In this document: positions 55 through 6,803 of the stretch, one piece after another
How the letters are laid out: each line of letters begins with the position of its first letter
Numbering within the stretch: position 1 is the first letter of the stretch
From: Cycloclasticus sp. symbiont of Bathymodiolus heckerae
Lineage (GTDB): Bacteria > Pseudomonadota > Gammaproteobacteria > Methylococcales > Cycloclasticaceae
Reading direction: 5' to 3'
Length of the DNA: 64,000 nucleotides
NCBI GenBank assembly: GCA_002101235.1
Contig: LWTL01000114.1
Span: forward strand, 1 to 64,000
Made by a program: the position numbers and the translations under genes
Notes under the pieces: generated by a model
Told to the model about the DNA's origin: nothing
What the model saw: only the letters and a program-made list of their open reading frames with translations
Databases searched by the model: none

Positions 55-126
55 GCGCTCACCTTTTTATCTTGAGATGAATAATATCACCTCTAATTAG
101 GTGGCCAACTTAACTATGCCACTACA
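1..126 (-). mobile_element. IS3-family element, left end only (runs off window)
   Basis: The minus strand carries an IS end whose outer tip begins TGTAGTGGCATAG at position 126. Inside it, a transposase OrfA gene starts at 54 (ATG ATG) and reads MMRRSRPTFTPEFRLEAA before the window ends at 1. That N-terminus is typical of IS3-family OrfA proteins, which bind the element ends. A second copy of the same outer end lies at 1163 in the opposite orientation, which fixes the boundary independently. The rest of the element is outside the window, so whether it is intact is unknown. Confidence 0.75.
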
Positions 127-1162: not shown

Positions 1163-1385
1163 TGTAGTGGCATAGTTAATTAGGCCGGCTAAATAAAGTG
1201 ATATTATTCACCTCATTATTATAAAAGGGGGCTCTCGAAAAAGTGGTAAACCCATCTCGTCGGCGTAGAATGGTATAGCGAGCTAAGGCACCTACGGAGA
1301 ACGAAGAAATAGCTGGCTGATTATTGCGGTTGAGTGCCGGGTGCAAACGCGTGGCTTTGGTCTGCGCTATTGTGCTCGGCTTTTA
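1163..1385 (+). mobile_element. chimeric IS scar: end of one IS3-type element joined to an internal piece of another
   Basis: From 1163 the sequence repeats the IS tip seen at 126-107 (TGTAGTGGCATAGTTAA, then GTGATATTATTCA), here on the plus strand. From about 1236 it changes to a degraded copy of the orfA/orfB junction of the element at 5664-6843: GAAAAAGTGGTAAA, CATCTCGTCGGCGT, then ACGGAGAACGAAGAAATAGC. Relative to that element about 110 bases are missing in the middle. No frame is open. It lies just upstream of the glycan gene block starting at 1415. Confidence 0.6.
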
Positions 1386-1414: not shown

Positions 1415-2083
1415 ATGTTGAAAAATAAAAACATATTAGTTACTGGTGGTAGCCGTGGAATTGGCAAGGCGATAAAAAAGTCTCTGGAATGCAAAGGGGC
1501 TAACTGTATTTCTCCTTCTAGAAATGAATTGGATATTTCTAGTTTAAGAAGTATAGAAGCATTTTTTGCTTCTTTGGACGTAGAGCTTGATGGACTTGTG
1601 AATAATGCTGGGATAAACATTGTAAACCCGGTTGAAGCTATTAATGATGTCGATACTGAGAAAATGATAAAAACAAACTTGATTGCTCCTCTGAAACTTA
1701 TTCAGTATGCGGTTAAAGGCATGCGAAAAAAGCCATCTGGTAGAGTTGTGAATATCAGCTCCATTTGGGGGGTTAGGTCAAAGGAGCATAGGTCTTTATA
1801 TTCTTTGACGAAGTTTGGTTTAAATGGTATTACAAGAGCTTTGGCTCGTGAATTGGGGCCTGATAATATTATGATAAATTCTGTGGCGCCAGGTTATGTC
1901 AATACCGAGATGACTAATCAAAATATCTCGAGTGATACCCAAAAAGAGATTGTTGAAACTATACCTCTTGGTAGGTTTGCGAGCCCGGATGAAATAGCGA
2001 AATTAGTGTTGTTTTTGTTGTCTGATGACAATACCTATATAACTGGGCAAACAATAGTTATTGATGGAGGTTTTTTAGCGTGA
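1415..2083 (+). CDS. short-chain dehydrogenase/reductase (glycan locus)
   Basis: A 222-residue classical SDR, probably NAD(P)(H)-dependent. Visible are the cofactor loop TGGSRGIG (residues 10-17), the NNAG motif (63-66), catalytic Ser at 115/116, and the Tyr129-x3-Lys133 pair. The C-terminus ITGQTIVIDGG is that of FabG-like reductases. The start has AAGGGG seven bases upstream. Its stop overlaps the start of the cyclase gene, so the two are translationally coupled. FabG itself is unlikely given the context; I infer reduction or oxidation of a keto group on the sugar or cyclitol made by its neighbours. Substrate unknown. Confidence 0.85.
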   Translation: MLKNKNILVTGGSRGIGKAIKKSLECKGANCISPSRNELDISSLRSIEAFFASLDVELDGLVNNAGINIVNPVEAINDVDTEKMIKTNLIAPLKLIQYAVKGMRKKPSGRVVNISSIWGVRSKEHRSLYSLTKFGLNGITRALARELGPDNIMINSVAPGYVNTEMTNQNISSDTQKEIVETIPLGRFASPDEIAKLVLFLLSDDNTYITGQTIVIDGGFLA

Positions 2084-3153
2084 AGATTACGATTAACTCG
2101 AACATTAGAAACTATGACGTTTGTTTTGAAGACTCATTTTCTTTCATTGGTGACCTCCAGGATGAGAAAGACCCGATCTTTGTGGTTGACCTGAATGTCT
2201 ATGCTTTATATCAAAAGCAACTTGAGGGAATACCTAGAGAAAGGCTTTTTTTGTTCAATGCTATCGAAGAGAATAAAACGTTTGATTACATAAAGGAAGT
2301 TTATGATTTTCTTCTTTCTAAGTCGGCAAAGCGGAGTTCTACTTTTATATCAATTGGAGGAGGGATTACTCAAGATATAACAGGCTTTGTTGCGTCCACT
2401 TTTTTCCGAGGGCTTAACTGGGTTTTTGTTCCAACAACGTTTTTGGCGATGACTGATAGCTGCATTGGTAGTAAGACATCTGTCAATTACGATAAGCATA
2501 AAAATTTAATGGGGACATTCTACCCGCCGAGTAAAATTTATATAAACAAAGATTTTTTGCTGACTTTAAAAGAGCTAGATTTTTACAGTGGAATAGGTGA
2601 GACAATTAAGTTTCAACTGATGGAAGAATCATACCCGAAGGATTTCGAATCTATTTTGGCAAAGGTAGAGAAAATAGTGCTTAACGAAAATGATAGAAAT
2701 GCTGTTATTTTGGAAAATATGAATATTAAGAAATCGTATATGGATGGTGACGAGTTTGATTTTGGCAGAAGGAATCTGTTGAATTACGGGCACTGTTTTG
2801 GACATGCGCTTGAGACCTCGTCTGGTTATTATATTCCTCACGGGATAGCTGTAAATATAGGCATGGTTTTTGCTAATTGCATTTCAGAAGGTAGAGGCTT
2901 GATTACAAAGGAAGATTCTGATTTTGTTAACCATAAAATCTTAGTTCCAAACGTGCCGCTTAGTTTAAGGTCGAAGGATTTTGATGCTTCCATTCTTCTG
3001 GAATCTATGAAGAACGATAAGAAGCGGGTGGGTGAGTTCCTCTCCGTTATAATCCCCGGCGAGGAATTTAGAATGATTAAAGCTAATGATGTAACTGACA
3101 TGGAATTTGAAGAAGGGATGAAGAAAACGTACAATACATTTTTTGGTGGATAA
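2080..3153 (+). CDS. 3-dehydroquinate synthase-like sugar phosphate cyclase
   Basis: A 357-residue member of the AroB/sugar-phosphate-cyclase superfamily, starting at GTG that overlaps the previous TGA. These enzymes use NAD+ and a divalent metal to close a phosphorylated ketose into a carbocycle. Seen in order: GGGITQDITGF (NAD loop), FVPTTFLAMTDSCIGSKT, KNLMGTFYPP, GIGETIKF (metal Glu), LLNYGHCFGHALE (metal His), PHGIAVNIGM (second His) and NDKKRVG. The usual DSSVGGKT block is changed to DSCIGSKT. Placement among glycan genes rather than shikimate genes suggests a dedicated cyclase. Whether its substrate is DAHP or another ketose phosphate cannot be read from sequence. Confidence 0.85.
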   Translation: MKITINSNIRNYDVCFEDSFSFIGDLQDEKDPIFVVDLNVYALYQKQLEGIPRERLFLFNAIEENKTFDYIKEVYDFLLSKSAKRSSTFISIGGGITQDITGFVASTFFRGLNWVFVPTTFLAMTDSCIGSKTSVNYDKHKNLMGTFYPPSKIYINKDFLLTLKELDFYSGIGETIKFQLMEESYPKDFESILAKVEKIVLNENDRNAVILENMNIKKSYMDGDEFDFGRRNLLNYGHCFGHALETSSGYYIPHGIAVNIGMVFANCISEGRGLITKEDSDFVNHKILVPNVPLSLRSKDFDASILLESMKNDKKRVGEFLSVIIPGEEFRMIKANDVTDMEFEEGMKKTYNTFFGG

Positions 3154-3177
3154 CAATTAAGGAGTTTGACAAAAAGG

Positions 3178-3960
3178 ATGAATGTAATTGAGAAAGGAAT
3201 GATAGAGTTATTAAAAAGACTCAAAGAGGAATATGGTGTTATTGAGCTAAAAGCCGAGTATGAAAATGAGGGTAGCCGACCAGATGAGCTAATGCGATTA
3301 AAAGATGTCGCTGGAAATGTTGGTTTACCTGTTATCCTCAAGATAGGCGGTGTTGAGGCTGTTTCAGATATATACAGTGCAATAACACTTGGTGCAAAGG
3401 GTGTCATTGCGCCTATGGCTGAAACTAAGTTTGCTGTGAGTAAGTTTACTAATGCAATAACTAACTTTGTTCCAACAGACAACGCGTCCGATATTGATTT
3501 TTGTATTAACGTTGAGACTATTACGGCTCATAATAATATAGATGAAATATTGTCGCTGGCTGATATTTCTATATTAGATGGTGTGACAATTGGCAGGGTG
3601 GACTTTACAGCGTCAATGGGTAAAGACCGGGGGTTTGTAAACAGCCCCGAGATGCTGCAGTATTGTGTGAACGTATTTACAAAATGTAGAGAGAAAAATC
3701 TAAAATGCGGATTAGGTGGTGCGATATCTACTGAATCGGAGGGTTTTATTCGTCACCTTGTAGAAAGAAATCTTGTAGATAAATTTGAGACACGGAAGGT
3801 AGTTTATGATAAGTCAGCTTTGGATACGCTGCAGGAAGGTATATTGCTTGGCGTCGAGTTTGAGTTGCGCTGGTTAGAAAGTAAGGAAAGGTATTATCAT
3901 AGAATAAAGATTGAAGATCAAAAACGGATATTAATGCTAAAAAATAGATTGAATAGCTAA
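3178..3960 (+). CDS. HpcH/HpaI-type (citrate lyase beta-like) aldolase
   Basis: A 260-residue TIM-barrel class II aldolase/lyase family protein. The two metal-binding acids are in place: Glu113 in NVETITA and Asp142 in IGRVDFTASMG, with the strand LDGVTIG before the latter. Such enzymes add pyruvate or a relative to an aldehyde, or cleave the product. The ATG at 3178 is preferred: GGAG at 3161-3164 lies 13 bases upstream, whereas an in-frame TTG at 3166 nearly touches it. It follows the cyclase by 24 bases and precedes the cytidylyltransferase by 24, fitting one operon. Inferred role: making a 2-keto-3-deoxy acid for the pathway. Confidence 0.75.
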   Translation: MNVIEKGMIELLKRLKEEYGVIELKAEYENEGSRPDELMRLKDVAGNVGLPVILKIGGVEAVSDIYSAITLGAKGVIAPMAETKFAVSKFTNAITNFVPTDNASDIDFCINVETITAHNNIDEILSLADISILDGVTIGRVDFTASMGKDRGFVNSPEMLQYCVNVFTKCREKNLKCGLGGAISTESEGFIRHLVERNLVDKFETRKVVYDKSALDTLQEGILLGVEFELRWLESKERYYHRIKIEDQKRILMLKNRLNS

Positions 3961-3984
3961 CTTAATTTAAGGTGAGCGGTAAAA

Positions 3985-4710
3985 ATGATTAGCCCTAAGC
4001 ATAAATATATTGCTGAAATTCCGGCCCGTATTGGCAGTAATAGAGTAAAAAAGAAAAGCATACGCATGCTAGATGGCAAGCCGATGATTCAATACGCTAT
4101 TGAAGCATGTAAAAACGCCTCAAAGGTTAAAGAAGTGTTTGTTAATACAGATAGCGACTTGATTGGAAAGGTTGCTATTGTTAATGAGGTAGGATATTAC
4201 AAGAGACTGGAGCACCTTGCGTCAGACACTAGTAAGCAAGACGAGTTTAACTACGATTTTTTAATGAATATGGATTGTGAGGCTGTCATCATGGTCAACC
4301 CAGTTTCTCCATTGATAGAGGGGTCTGATATTGACAACGCCATTACTTATTTTGAAGAGATGGAGCTAGATTCATTAATCAGTGCTAAGCAAGAAAGGTT
4401 GCATGTTTTTTTCCAGGGTAACCCGCTAAATTTTTGTACGGACTCATTGCTTCCTGCGACTCAAGATATTGCTCCTGTGGATATTTGTACTTGGAATATA
4501 TGTATTTGGAGAAAAGAAACATTTATCAGGTCATATGAAAAGGATGGTTACGCTGCGTTTAGTGGGAAGGTGGGTTTGTGGAGCGTAGACCCCATTAAGG
4601 CAATAAAAATCAGCTATGAAGATGACTTTAGAATGGCTGAAGAGATAATTAAATCTCGAGAAGGGCGTGCTTCTGAATACAAGCCCTCGTATTACGAGGA
4701 AGTATTGTAA
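3985..4710 (+). CDS. acylneuraminate/Kdo-type cytidylyltransferase
   Basis: A 241-residue protein of the CMP-sialic acid/CMP-Kdo synthetase superfamily, which activates acidic sugars with CTP. The N-terminal nucleotide loop reads AEIPARIGSNRVKKKSI (residues 10-26), and GKPMIQYAI and VNPVSPLI follow as expected. It is closer in size to NeuA-like (about 230 residues) than to KdsB proteins. No neuB or neuC homologue is present, so the acceptor is probably not a conventional sialic acid. Ribosome site AAGGTGAG sits eight bases upstream. It is the last gene of the tight block from 1415. Confidence 0.8.
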   Translation: MISPKHKYIAEIPARIGSNRVKKKSIRMLDGKPMIQYAIEACKNASKVKEVFVNTDSDLIGKVAIVNEVGYYKRLEHLASDTSKQDEFNYDFLMNMDCEAVIMVNPVSPLIEGSDIDNAITYFEEMELDSLISAKQERLHVFFQGNPLNFCTDSLLPATQDIAPVDICTWNICIWRKETFIRSYEKDGYAAFSGKVGLWSVDPIKAIKISYEDDFRMAEEIIKSREGRASEYKPSYYEEVL

Positions 4711-4940: not shown

Positions 4941-5501
4941 ATGAAAAGAGTATTTGACCTTCTTTTAGCTGCTATAGTTACTTTTGTTTTCTTACTTCCA
5001 ATTTGTATAGTCGCTATTTTGGTGCGGCTCACATCAAAAGGACCTGCATTATATTGGTCCGACAGGATTGGAGTTAATAACACTGTGTTCAAAATGCCAA
5101 AGTTTCGTAGTATGAAGGTTGATACGCCAGCAGTTGCGACCCATTTATTGGAAGACTCTAAAAGTGTTTTAACACCGATTGGTGATTTTTTACGTAAGTC
5201 TAGCTTGGATGAGCTGCCTCAATTGTGGTCTATTCTAGTGGGAGATATGAGTTTTGTAGGGCCACGACCAGCGTTATTTAATCAGGACGATTTGATTGTA
5301 CTACGAACTGATAAAAGCGTGGATAAACTCATGCCGGGTTTAACGGGTTGGGCGCAAGTGAATGGGCGTGATGAATTGCCTATACCGAAAAAAGTAGATT
5401 TAGATGTCGAGTACCTTCAGCGGCAATCTTTTGGGTTTGATATTTATATTCTTTGGCTAACACTTATTAAAGTTATTAAACGCTCAGGCGTTTCGCATTA
5501 A
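4941..5501 (+). CDS. PglC-like monotopic phosphoglycosyl transferase
   Basis: A 186-residue bacterial sugar transferase of the small PglC/WcaJ-C-terminal type. It transfers a sugar phosphate from a nucleotide sugar to undecaprenyl phosphate at the inner membrane face, the first step of repeat-unit assembly. There is one N-terminal membrane helix (about residues 5-29), then KFRSM, the catalytic Asp90-Glu91 pair in SSLDELPQLW, GDMSFVGPRPAL and PGLTGWAQVNGRD. The length matches PglC (about 200) rather than the 460-residue WcaJ form. It normally uses a UDP-sugar, so it would start the glycan to which the CMP-activated acid is later added. Its ribosome site is weak. Confidence 0.85.
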   Translation: MKRVFDLLLAAIVTFVFLLPICIVAILVRLTSKGPALYWSDRIGVNNTVFKMPKFRSMKVDTPAVATHLLEDSKSVLTPIGDFLRKSSLDELPQLWSILVGDMSFVGPRPALFNQDDLIVLRTDKSVDKLMPGLTGWAQVNGRDELPIPKKVDLDVEYLQRQSFGFDIYILWLTLIKVIKRSGVSH

Positions 5502-5508
5502 TGGCGCC

Positions 5509-5663
5509 CTAACTTACGCCGCTATTTTCCATCACAATATCTGCTGACTTCCAGCCTCTAGCCTCCTGCCACCATGATTTGAGGTAAGATTTTCCTTCAT
5601 TTAGCAAGTCTTGTGCTCGGCTGACTCGGGCTGAGTGCCCTGAAATATCACGTTTTGCCCAAT
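5509..5663 (-). pseudogene. orphan C-terminal fragment abutting the IS
   Basis: A minus-strand frame of about 51 codons ends at 5509 and enters directly from the IS tip at 5664, so any upstream part was lost. The residues (for example SRAQDLLNEGKSYLKSWWQE) do not let me name a family. It may be the tail of a gene cut by the IS, or chance; confidence is low. Confidence 0.25.
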
Positions 5664-5732
5664 TGTAATTCCCCTTGAAAACCAAGGGAGTTTTAAGTAG
5701 AAAATTCTTATAATGAAATAAAGGAGTTTTCG

Positions 5733-5999
5733 ATGAAAAAATCACGTTATACAGACAGCCAAATTTTGTCGATCTTGAAGAAAAATGAAGCAGGCACACC
5801 GGTTCCAGAATTATGTCGTGAACACGGTATGAGCAATGCGATGTTTTATAAGTGGCGGTCTAAGTTTGGCGGTATGGATGCCTCATTAATGAAGCGGATG
5901 AAAGAGCTTGAATACGAGAACCGACGGCTTAAAAAGATGTACGCAGAAGAAAAACTAAAAGCTGAGATTGTTAAGGAGGCACTTGAAAAAAAGTGGTAA
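5733..5999 (+). CDS. IS3-family transposase OrfA
   Basis: An 88-residue helix-turn-helix protein with a C-terminal coiled-coil/leucine zipper: YTDSQILSILKKNEAG, CREHGMSNAMFYKWRSKFGG, then LEYENRRLKKMYAEEKLKAE. It is intact and full length for the group and binds the element ends. It ends in LEKKW next to the A7G run where the OrfAB fusion would be made. Without a working OrfB no transposition is expected. A GGAG ribosome site lies seven bases upstream of ATG. Confidence 0.9.
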   Translation: MKKSRYTDSQILSILKKNEAGTPVPELCREHGMSNAMFYKWRSKFGGMDASLMKRMKELEYENRRLKKMYAEEKLKAEIVKEALEKKW

Positions 6000-6803
6000 A
6001 GGCCATCTCGCCGGCGTGAGATGGCGCAACGCGCCAACAATGATTTTAGTGCCTCGGTACGTGTCAGCTGCTGCGCTTTTGGCATCAGTGAAACTTGCTA
6101 CCGTTATCAAGCCAAGCTATCCACGGAGAATGAAGAAATAGCGGATTAGCTGCTGAGGTTAAGTACCACGCATAAGCGCTGGGGCTTCGGGTTGTACTTT
6201 TTGTACCTTCGTAATATCAAAGGTTATGGTTGGAACCATAAACGGGTTTACCGCATTTATAGGGAGCTTGAGCTGAACTTAAGAATCAAACCTAAGCGAC
6301 GTATCAAACGGGACAAGCCTGAGGTTCTGGAGTGTTCCTGAAGCGATCAATCAAGTTTGGTCGATGGATTTCATGAGTGACACGTTAAATGATGGCCGAG
6401 CTATTCGTACATTCAATGTTATAGATGATTTTAACCGTGAAAGACTCGGCATTGATGTTGACCTTTCGCTACCAAGTGCGCGGGTTATACGGTCACTCGA
6501 GCAAATCATAGAATGGAGAGGTAAGCCGTTAGCAATACGCTGCGACAATGGTCCCGAATATATCAGCCAAACCTTGAAAGACTGAGCAATAAAGCAGCAA
6601 ATAACCTTGCTCTATATTCAACCGGGTAAGCCTACTCAGAATGCTTATATTGAACGATTCAACCGAACAGCTCGACATGAATGGTTAGATTTGCATCTGT
6701 TTGAATCAATTGAGCAACACAATGGCTTCGGTCATACAATAATGAACGTCCGCATACAGCAATCGGTGGCGTGCCACCAAGACAATTACTGAAGGCGGCT
6801 TAA
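6000..6803 (+). pseudogene. IS3-family transposase OrfB, multiply broken
   Basis: Pieces of the DDE (rve) integrase can be followed across frames: RPSRRREMAQ after 6000, GWNHKRVYRIYRELELN near 6230, then VWSMDFMSDTLNDGRA (6355 on), IRCDNGPEYISQT and YIQPGKPTQNAYIERFNRT, ending NNERPHTAIGGVPPRQLL near 6800. Lesions are TAG in EEIAD-stop-LL (about 6150), a frame change near 6335, TGA after LKD (about 6583), and a deletion with frame change near 6720-6745. Active-site residues are still partly encoded, but no intact protein can be made. Confidence 0.9.

Follow-up and report, generated by a model that had tools for sequence, protein, structure and literature searches.

A four-gene block in a Cycloclasticus symbiont as a proposed CMP-ulosonate variant of a donor-supply module of branched-sugar clusters, with a probably non-cyclising AroB-like enzyme at its centre

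The branched sugars yersiniose, erwiniose and caryophyllose are made by a set comprising RfbF, RfbG, RfbH and a YerE-like enzyme, which leads to cytidine diphosphate (CDP)-4-keto-3,6-dideoxyglucose and to its branching at C4 (PMC12247030). The YerE-like enzymes ErwE and MMAR_2332, the latter from M. marinum, favour hydroxylated 2-oxo acids as donors (PMC12247030), and caryophyllose, a C12 sugar, bears a hydroxylated chain of six carbons at C4 (PMC7821131). Here we describe a block of four genes at positions 1415-4710 of a 64,000-nucleotide stretch of DNA (hereafter the window; contig LWTL01000114.1, positions 1 to 64,000) from the Cycloclasticus sp. symbiont of Bathymodiolus heckerae. The block encodes a short-chain dehydrogenase/reductase (SDR), an AroB-like protein, a pyruvate aldolase of the HpcH/HpaI superfamily and a cytidylyltransferase. 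It appears to be a cytidine monophosphate (CMP)-ulosonate variant of a donor-supply module that otherwise occurs in clusters for CDP-branched sugars, with an AroB-like centre that is probably non-cyclising. As a working proposal that falls a little short of being probable, it can be read as a horizontally acquired pathway for CMP-activated 3,7-dideoxyhept-2-ulosonic acid.

All four open reading frames (ORFs) lie on the + strand; none is truncated, their catalytic motifs are intact and their spacing is coupled. The SDR (1415..2083, 222 amino acids (aa); Pfam adh_short_C2, 160 bits) has a TGGSRGIG cofactor motif and a YSLTK active site, and its reading frame shares 4 bp with that of the AroB-like protein (2080..3153, 357 aa, GTG start; DHQ_synthase, 123 bits, and DHQS_C, 95 bits). 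The aldolase ORF (3178..3960, about 260 aa; PF03328, 34.6 bits, cut-off 25) was listed from a TTG at 3166, but the ATG at 3178 is preferred, relatives starting there ('MN..E'). Because this ATG is taken as the start, there are gaps of 24 bp on both sides of the aldolase, the downstream one leading to the cytidylyltransferase (3985..4710, 241 aa; CTP_transf_3, PF02348, 69 bits). ORFs and Pfam matches thus agree with the original prediction, made from the window alone, as to the four families and their tight packing.

The AroB-like protein scores above the curated cut-off of the NCBIfam model TIGR04425 (414.1 bits against 400), a model named 'AroB-related putative sugar phosphate phospholyase (cyclizing)', and stays under the aroB equivalog TIGR01357 (259.1 bits, cut-off 305); a separate AroB, 34% identical to it, is encoded on another contig of the genome (C121). 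When residues are numbered as in the Aspergillus 3-dehydroquinate (DHQ) synthase, the metal ligands and the residues binding nicotinamide adenine dinucleotide (NAD), phosphate and carboxylate are all kept, and the window protein departs from DHQ synthase in having Ser for Gly151 and Phe for Lys261. Arg264 and Lys250, which in DHQ synthase grip the C1 carboxylate of the substrate, are conserved in 99 of 99 AroB-like homologues as well as in 20 of 20 phage ones. Since these two residues are conserved, the substrate is presumably a carboxylic acid, and a non-carboxylate sugar phosphate, of the kind used by 2-epi-5-epi-valiolone synthase (EEVS) or 2-deoxy-scyllo-inosose synthase (DOIS), was dropped on the same ground. 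Because the DHQ synthase active site is kept, these residues included, the substrate may well be a 3-deoxyhept-2-ulosonate 7-phosphate resembling 3-deoxy-D-arabino-heptulosonate 7-phosphate (DAHP). Among plasmids, no relative of the AroB-like protein was found at E 1e-45, and matches in phage records show about 29-32% identity and, if they carry an annotation, are called 3-dehydroquinate synthase.

The aldolase had been credited with both metal-binding acids; these, E117 and D146, are unchanged in each of 75 homologues. Among PDB folds, its AlphaFold model (mean predicted local distance difference test score 94.7) best matches HpcH/HpaI enzymes and also the citrate synthase SbnG (E about 1e-9, template modelling score about 0.6), at a sequence identity to solved HpcH/HpaI aldolases of about 17-18%. 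Lys59 occupies the place of HpaI Arg70, the motif GRVD stands in place of the usual G-(P/T)-x-D, and Lys29, Glu35, Arg144, Glu208-Lys211 and Lys240 set the protein apart as a separate subfamily; the HpaI, YfaU and GarL equivalogs score at most 25 bits, against cut-offs of at least 368. The same subfamily is found on a Novosphingobium humi plasmid (L006:12037-14807), where it follows genes resembling those for glucose-1-phosphate cytidylyltransferase and CDP-glucose 4,6-dehydratase, in a 28.8-kb stretch in which no AroB-like gene was recognised. The cytidylyltransferase is likewise remote from its named relatives, with 59.3 bits to the PseF equivalog (cut-off 205.7) and 28.7 bits to KdsB (cut-off 155.2). 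Relatives at 33-39% identity lie beside other AroB-like cassettes, and one at 49% lies in a phage locus (L145). CMP synthetases that stand next to AroB-like genes and are extended at the C-terminus by a further domain of about 130 aa, cupin-like in look, occur at three loci (L017, L081 and L082).

For the wider context, the AroB-like alignment was run against about 85,000 species genomes and the best 80 loci were kept, of which 77, spanning more than 20 named phyla, were usable; some of their contigs are truncated, so that absences are soft. A scan of viral contigs with the aldolase gave 26 further loci, and BLAST with Louvain communities served to group the neighbouring gene families. Of the 77 genome loci, 72 have an SDR, and in 90 loci it is adjacent to the AroB-like gene, mostly overlapping it. 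The original prediction depended on the aldolase and the cyclase-like protein being conserved together elsewhere; the aldolase occurs in 46 of the 77 loci, in 45 of them no more than three genes away, a co-occurrence far beyond chance. A thiamine diphosphate (ThDP) enzyme of the acetolactate-synthase superfamily is found in 52 of the 77, and in a Sulfuricurvum locus (L010) RfbF, RfbG and RfbH pass their equivalog cut-offs. Judging from these families, the usual partner of the module would be a YerE-like ThDP enzyme together with RfbF/G/H, i.e. the machinery for CDP-branched sugars of the yersiniose and caryophyllose type, a context that is not visible to a reader of the window.

The aldolase, a NeuB-like protein and an HMGL-domain protein are non-homologous routes to a 2-keto acid that start from pyruvate or phosphoenolpyruvate (PEP) and form a C-C bond, the role of the HMGL-domain protein being suggested by its superfamily. 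Exactly one of the three makers is present in 65 of the 77 loci, none in 12 and two in 0, whereas shuffled loci had two makers in 11.1 cases on average and 0 of 100,000 shuffles was as low as observed. One of the three is also present in 51 of the 52 loci having the YerE-like ThDP enzyme, and on the AroB-like tree the source of the 2-keto acid switches 13 times. The consumers alternate as well: a ThDP enzyme is present in only 4 of 16 CMP-type loci, i.e. those with a CMP synthetase, against 10.8 expected, the sink switches from ThDP enzyme to CMP synthetase at least five times on the tree, and the label of CMP synthetase without ThDP enzyme undergoes six supported changes. The window protein groups with those of L009, L010 and L011 inside the aldolase/ThDP clade. 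Position 197 of the AroB-like protein is Lys in the window and in every aldolase-type homologue, and His in 19 of 20 phage CMP-type proteins and in three of ten other CMP-type ones. Because Lys197 is common to the window protein and all aldolase-type ones, the substrate of the window enzyme is most likely that of the ThDP-type clusters; a different heptulosonate may be used in the phage route, which includes a SIS-domain isomerase.

A second CMP-type architecture was seen at nine loci (L013, L014, L017, L078, L080, L083, L133, L135 and L137). It combines a GmhA-like SIS protein, a Gfo/Idh/MocA protein and a D-2-hydroxyacid dehydrogenase with the SDR, the AroB-like protein and a NeuA/KdsB-type enzyme, mostly without the aldolase, and perhaps represents a route through a heptulosonate that is not 3-deoxy.

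From these observed gene families and active sites, the conserved module and the alternation of its two sinks, we infer the whole of the following chemistry. The aldolase would join pyruvate and erythrose 4-phosphate, and the resulting 3-deoxyhept-2-ulosonate 7-phosphate would probably be epimeric with DAHP at C4. In an NAD-dependent reaction, the AroB-like enzyme would then carry out oxidation, elimination of the 7-phosphate and re-reduction as in AroB, but its enol would be protonated at C7 rather than closing on C2, giving 3,7-dideoxyhepto-2,6-diulosonate. Reduction of the C6 ketone by the SDR would yield 3,7-dideoxyhept-2-ulosonate, on whose C2 hydroxyl the cytidylyltransferase would place CMP. 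Elsewhere, in the majority of genomes, this 2-keto acid would serve as donor for the YerE-like ThDP enzyme, which would add a C6 chain to CDP-4-keto-3,6-dideoxyhexose, as in caryophyllose-type sugars. The argument for a non-cyclising step is that a ThDP enzyme decarboxylates a 2-oxo acid and a CMP synthetase activates an anomeric C2 hydroxyl, so that the product of the module should keep its 2-oxo group; since DHQ-type closure would destroy this group, the AroB-like enzyme would eliminate phosphate without cyclising. Decarboxylative transfer of 3,7-dideoxyhept-2-ulosonate would deliver a six-carbon chain, CO-CH2-CHOH-CHOH-CHOH-CH3, and the compound would thus be exactly the C6-acyl donor needed for the C6 chain of caryophyllose. 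We take caryophyllose to be D-erythro-D-gulo-decose, the chain of which would correspond to the C4 epimer of DAHP, of D-ribo configuration; this correspondence, if right, would explain why a dedicated aldolase is used rather than the housekeeping DAHP synthase. The broader notion of a DHQ synthase homologue converted to a non-cyclising 7-deoxygenase of ulosonate phosphates, with 3,7-dideoxyhept-2-ulosonate feeding both ThDP branching and CMP activation, is put forward somewhat more cautiously than the assignment of the block itself.

Several points weigh against this pathway. The last ring closure of DHQ synthase is generally regarded as spontaneous after formation of the enol pyranose, and on that view a non-cyclising enzyme would require active protonation. 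Among the loci found, aldolase, SDR, AroB-like protein and CMP synthetase occur together without a ThDP enzyme in the window only; both sinks are present in two Melainabacteria loci (L033 and L055), and SIS, Gfo and 2-hydroxyacid-dehydrogenase genes are used in other CMP-type loci. No gene for a CMP-sugar glycosyltransferase adjoins the block, the cluster is truncated by the contig end, so that genes may have been lost, and no biochemistry on the block or the family was found in the literature. Literature searched in full text for this set of genes and for TIGR04425 yielded nothing relevant; the earlier remark was that no described pathway with exactly this set was known; a survey of YerE-like clusters may already propose a donor pathway.

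In the original prediction the AroB-like enzyme could close a phosphorylated ketulosonate into a carbocycle. In full, the aldolase product would be closed to a dehydroquinate-like ring and reduced by the SDR, with CMP attached to another hydroxyl, and this would suit the conservation of every DHQ synthase catalytic residue, the word 'cyclizing' in the name of TIGR04425 and the ease of closure after the phosphate has departed. However, closure uses up C2 and leaves a tertiary alcohol, without an anomeric centre for a CMP-ulosonate synthetase, a ring product could not act as 2-oxo-acid donor for the ThDP enzyme standing beside 52 of the 77 relatives, and the organism already has AroB. Since the conserved sinks, ThDP ligase and CMP synthetase, need a C2 ketone, the cyclisation step is probably wrong, and we regard a true carbocycle as unlikely.

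The setting in the genome (2.13 Mb in 123 contigs, rated 100% complete) bears on whether the block is what remains of a caryophyllose-type cluster, whose RfbF/G/H and ThDP genes would have been lost or left unassembled and to which the cytidylyltransferase would be unrelated. The nesting of the window AroB-like protein in the aldolase/ThDP clade agrees with such an origin, as does the position of the block, since the contig (C114) begins at base 1 of the window and an insertion sequence (IS) end is close by. Yet no match to a CDP-glucose 4,6-dehydratase (RfbG) and no YerE-like ThDP ligase was found in this genome, the sole ThDP match, on contig C116, being 32% identical to the YerE-like protein and resembling acetolactate synthase. 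The cytidylyltransferase, moreover, lies 24 bp from the aldolase, and about a dozen genome loci have a relative of it next to an AroB-like gene, which makes a partial cluster of this kind quite unlikely. Because neither RfbG nor a YerE-like enzyme was found, CMP activation is the fate that we favour for the product in the window. Other sugar genes of the genome fit this: a KdsB-like protein is encoded on contig C110, a pseudaminic-type cluster on C114 itself (L132) has its own PseF-like and NeuB-like genes, and these other CTP_transf_3 proteins look assigned, which supports the earlier suggestion of a CMP-activated, aldolase-made 2-keto-3-deoxy acid outside the sialic, 3-deoxy-D-manno-octulosonic acid (Kdo) and pseudaminic pathways. 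The accompanying statement that no neuB or kdsA homologue is present holds for the block, which has none, but not for the contig, where the NeuB-like gene of the pseudaminic-type cluster lies about 11.8 kb beyond the window.

It is also conceivable that the aldolase takes a pentose or deoxy-tetrose phosphate, so that the CMP-ulosonate differs in length or stereochemistry. HpcH/HpaI aldolases are promiscuous, and this one combines unusual pocket residues (Lys29, Lys59 and Arg144) with its low identity to solved relatives. Against this, the DAHP-type residues of the AroB-like protein and the geometry of the six-ring mechanism favour a 7-carbon, 7-phosphate substrate, and caryophyllose requires exactly a 7-carbon donor. 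Another carbon skeleton therefore seems distinctly improbable.

A horizontal origin of the block is likely, because IS remnants flank it, its G+C content is low (37% over 2-4 kb, against roughly 40-45% across most of the window), and neither TIGR04425 nor the cytidylyltransferase is found elsewhere in the genus: no TIGR04425 protein was found in the same-genus genomes searched, and the cytidylyltransferase is present in one of the 18 genomes of the genus and absent from the other 17. On the 5′ side, an IS end at 64..126 (no strand) forms an inverted-repeat pair with a second one at 1163..1224 (no strand) directly upstream of the block, and the minus strand at the contig edge has an IS3 OrfA-like start. 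On the 3′ side, IS3-family transposase DNA (5662..6100, + strand) is 70-74% identical in nucleotides to many annotated IS3 transposases. That the block is a decaying acquired fragment with no present function, as the IS remnants on both sides, its occurrence in a single genome of the 18 and the missing glycosyltransferase might suggest, is hardly credible, since none of the four ORFs is shortened, their catalytic motifs are intact and their spacing is that of coupled genes. An ORF of 109 aa (664-993, - strand) without a family match, the ends of which faintly resemble a sulfotransferase fragment, is situated between the IS end and the block. Downstream, 230 bp from the cytidylyltransferase and without overlap, a PglC/WcaJ-like phosphoglycosyl transferase is encoded (4941..5501, + strand, 186 aa; Bac_transf, PF02397, 190 bits). 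It had been taken as a pointer to surface glycan use, but this enzyme class uses uridine diphosphate (UDP)-sugars and not CMP-sugars, so that the pointer is weak; we treat the gene as a neighbour of unproven membership in the pathway.

Close viral relatives were not found with the single cytidylyltransferase sequence, whereas a query with its alignment led to 40 viral loci, many of them SIS-SDR-AroB-like-CMP synthetase operons; in L145 these four genes are consecutive. In two loci (L113 and L114) the order is aldolase-epimerase-CTP_transf_3. Four phage loci (L089, L090, L092 and L111) pair the aldolase with a ThDP enzyme and have no AroB-like gene within the available stretch, as expected if the aldolase makes the ThDP donor. 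Operons that encode a class-III aminotransferase and a GmhA-like SIS isomerase along with a CMP synthetase, SDR and AroB-like protein were seen in L145, L156, L163, L165-L168, L171 and others, apparently a widespread phage-encoded CMP-sugar pathway. In the phage cassettes of L093, L096 and L100 (8.0-13.2 kb) the SDR and AroB-like genes, as a pair, have the opposite orientation to the preceding aldolase and the following ThDP enzyme, an order that recurs in L094, L095, L099, L103 and L104. The ThDP-enzyme gene of L089 (5733-7741) is fragmented, and an endonuclease/HNH-like ORF (6245-6781) separates two of the fragments.

If the proposed pathway is true, it would explain how long acyl donors could be supplied for caryophyllose-type branched sugars, assign a role to TIGR04425, a hypothetical family present in many bacteria, in phages and in a few archaea, and predict a new class of CMP-activated C7 ulosonic acids; it would also mean that a textbook cyclase has been reused minus its ring-closing step. 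Compared with the CDP-branched-sugar pathways for yersiniose, erwiniose and caryophyllose, in which most relatives carry the SDR-AroB-like-aldolase module, the window shares the 2-keto-acid logic and differs in that a CMP synthetase would take the product, RfbG and the YerE-like enzyme not having been found. With AroB and the sugar phosphate cyclases the AroB-like protein has the fold, metal ligands, NAD loop and phosphate- and carboxylate-binding residues in common, whereas it belongs to TIGR04425, is clustered with consumers of 2-keto acids and is unlikely to close a ring. The CMP-nonulosonate and CMP-Kdo pathways (NeuB-NeuA, PseI-PseF and KdsA-KdsB) likewise make a 2-keto-3-deoxy acid by an aldol-type reaction and activate it with cytidine triphosphate (CTP), but they use a PEP synthase where the block has a pyruvate aldolase, an AroB-like lyase and an SDR stand in between, and the predicted product is a C7 acid with a terminal methyl group. 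The HpcH/HpaI class II pyruvate aldolases (YfaU, HpaI and SbnG) share the fold and both metal-binding acids with the aldolase of the block, which nevertheless forms a separate subfamily with Lys59 for the catalytic Arg70 and the GRVD motif. Finally, the phage SIS-SDR-AroB-like-CMP synthetase operons, such as that of L145, have the same SDR, AroB-like and CMP synthetase families side by side, but in them a GmhA-like isomerase, often with a class-III aminotransferase, replaces the aldolase.

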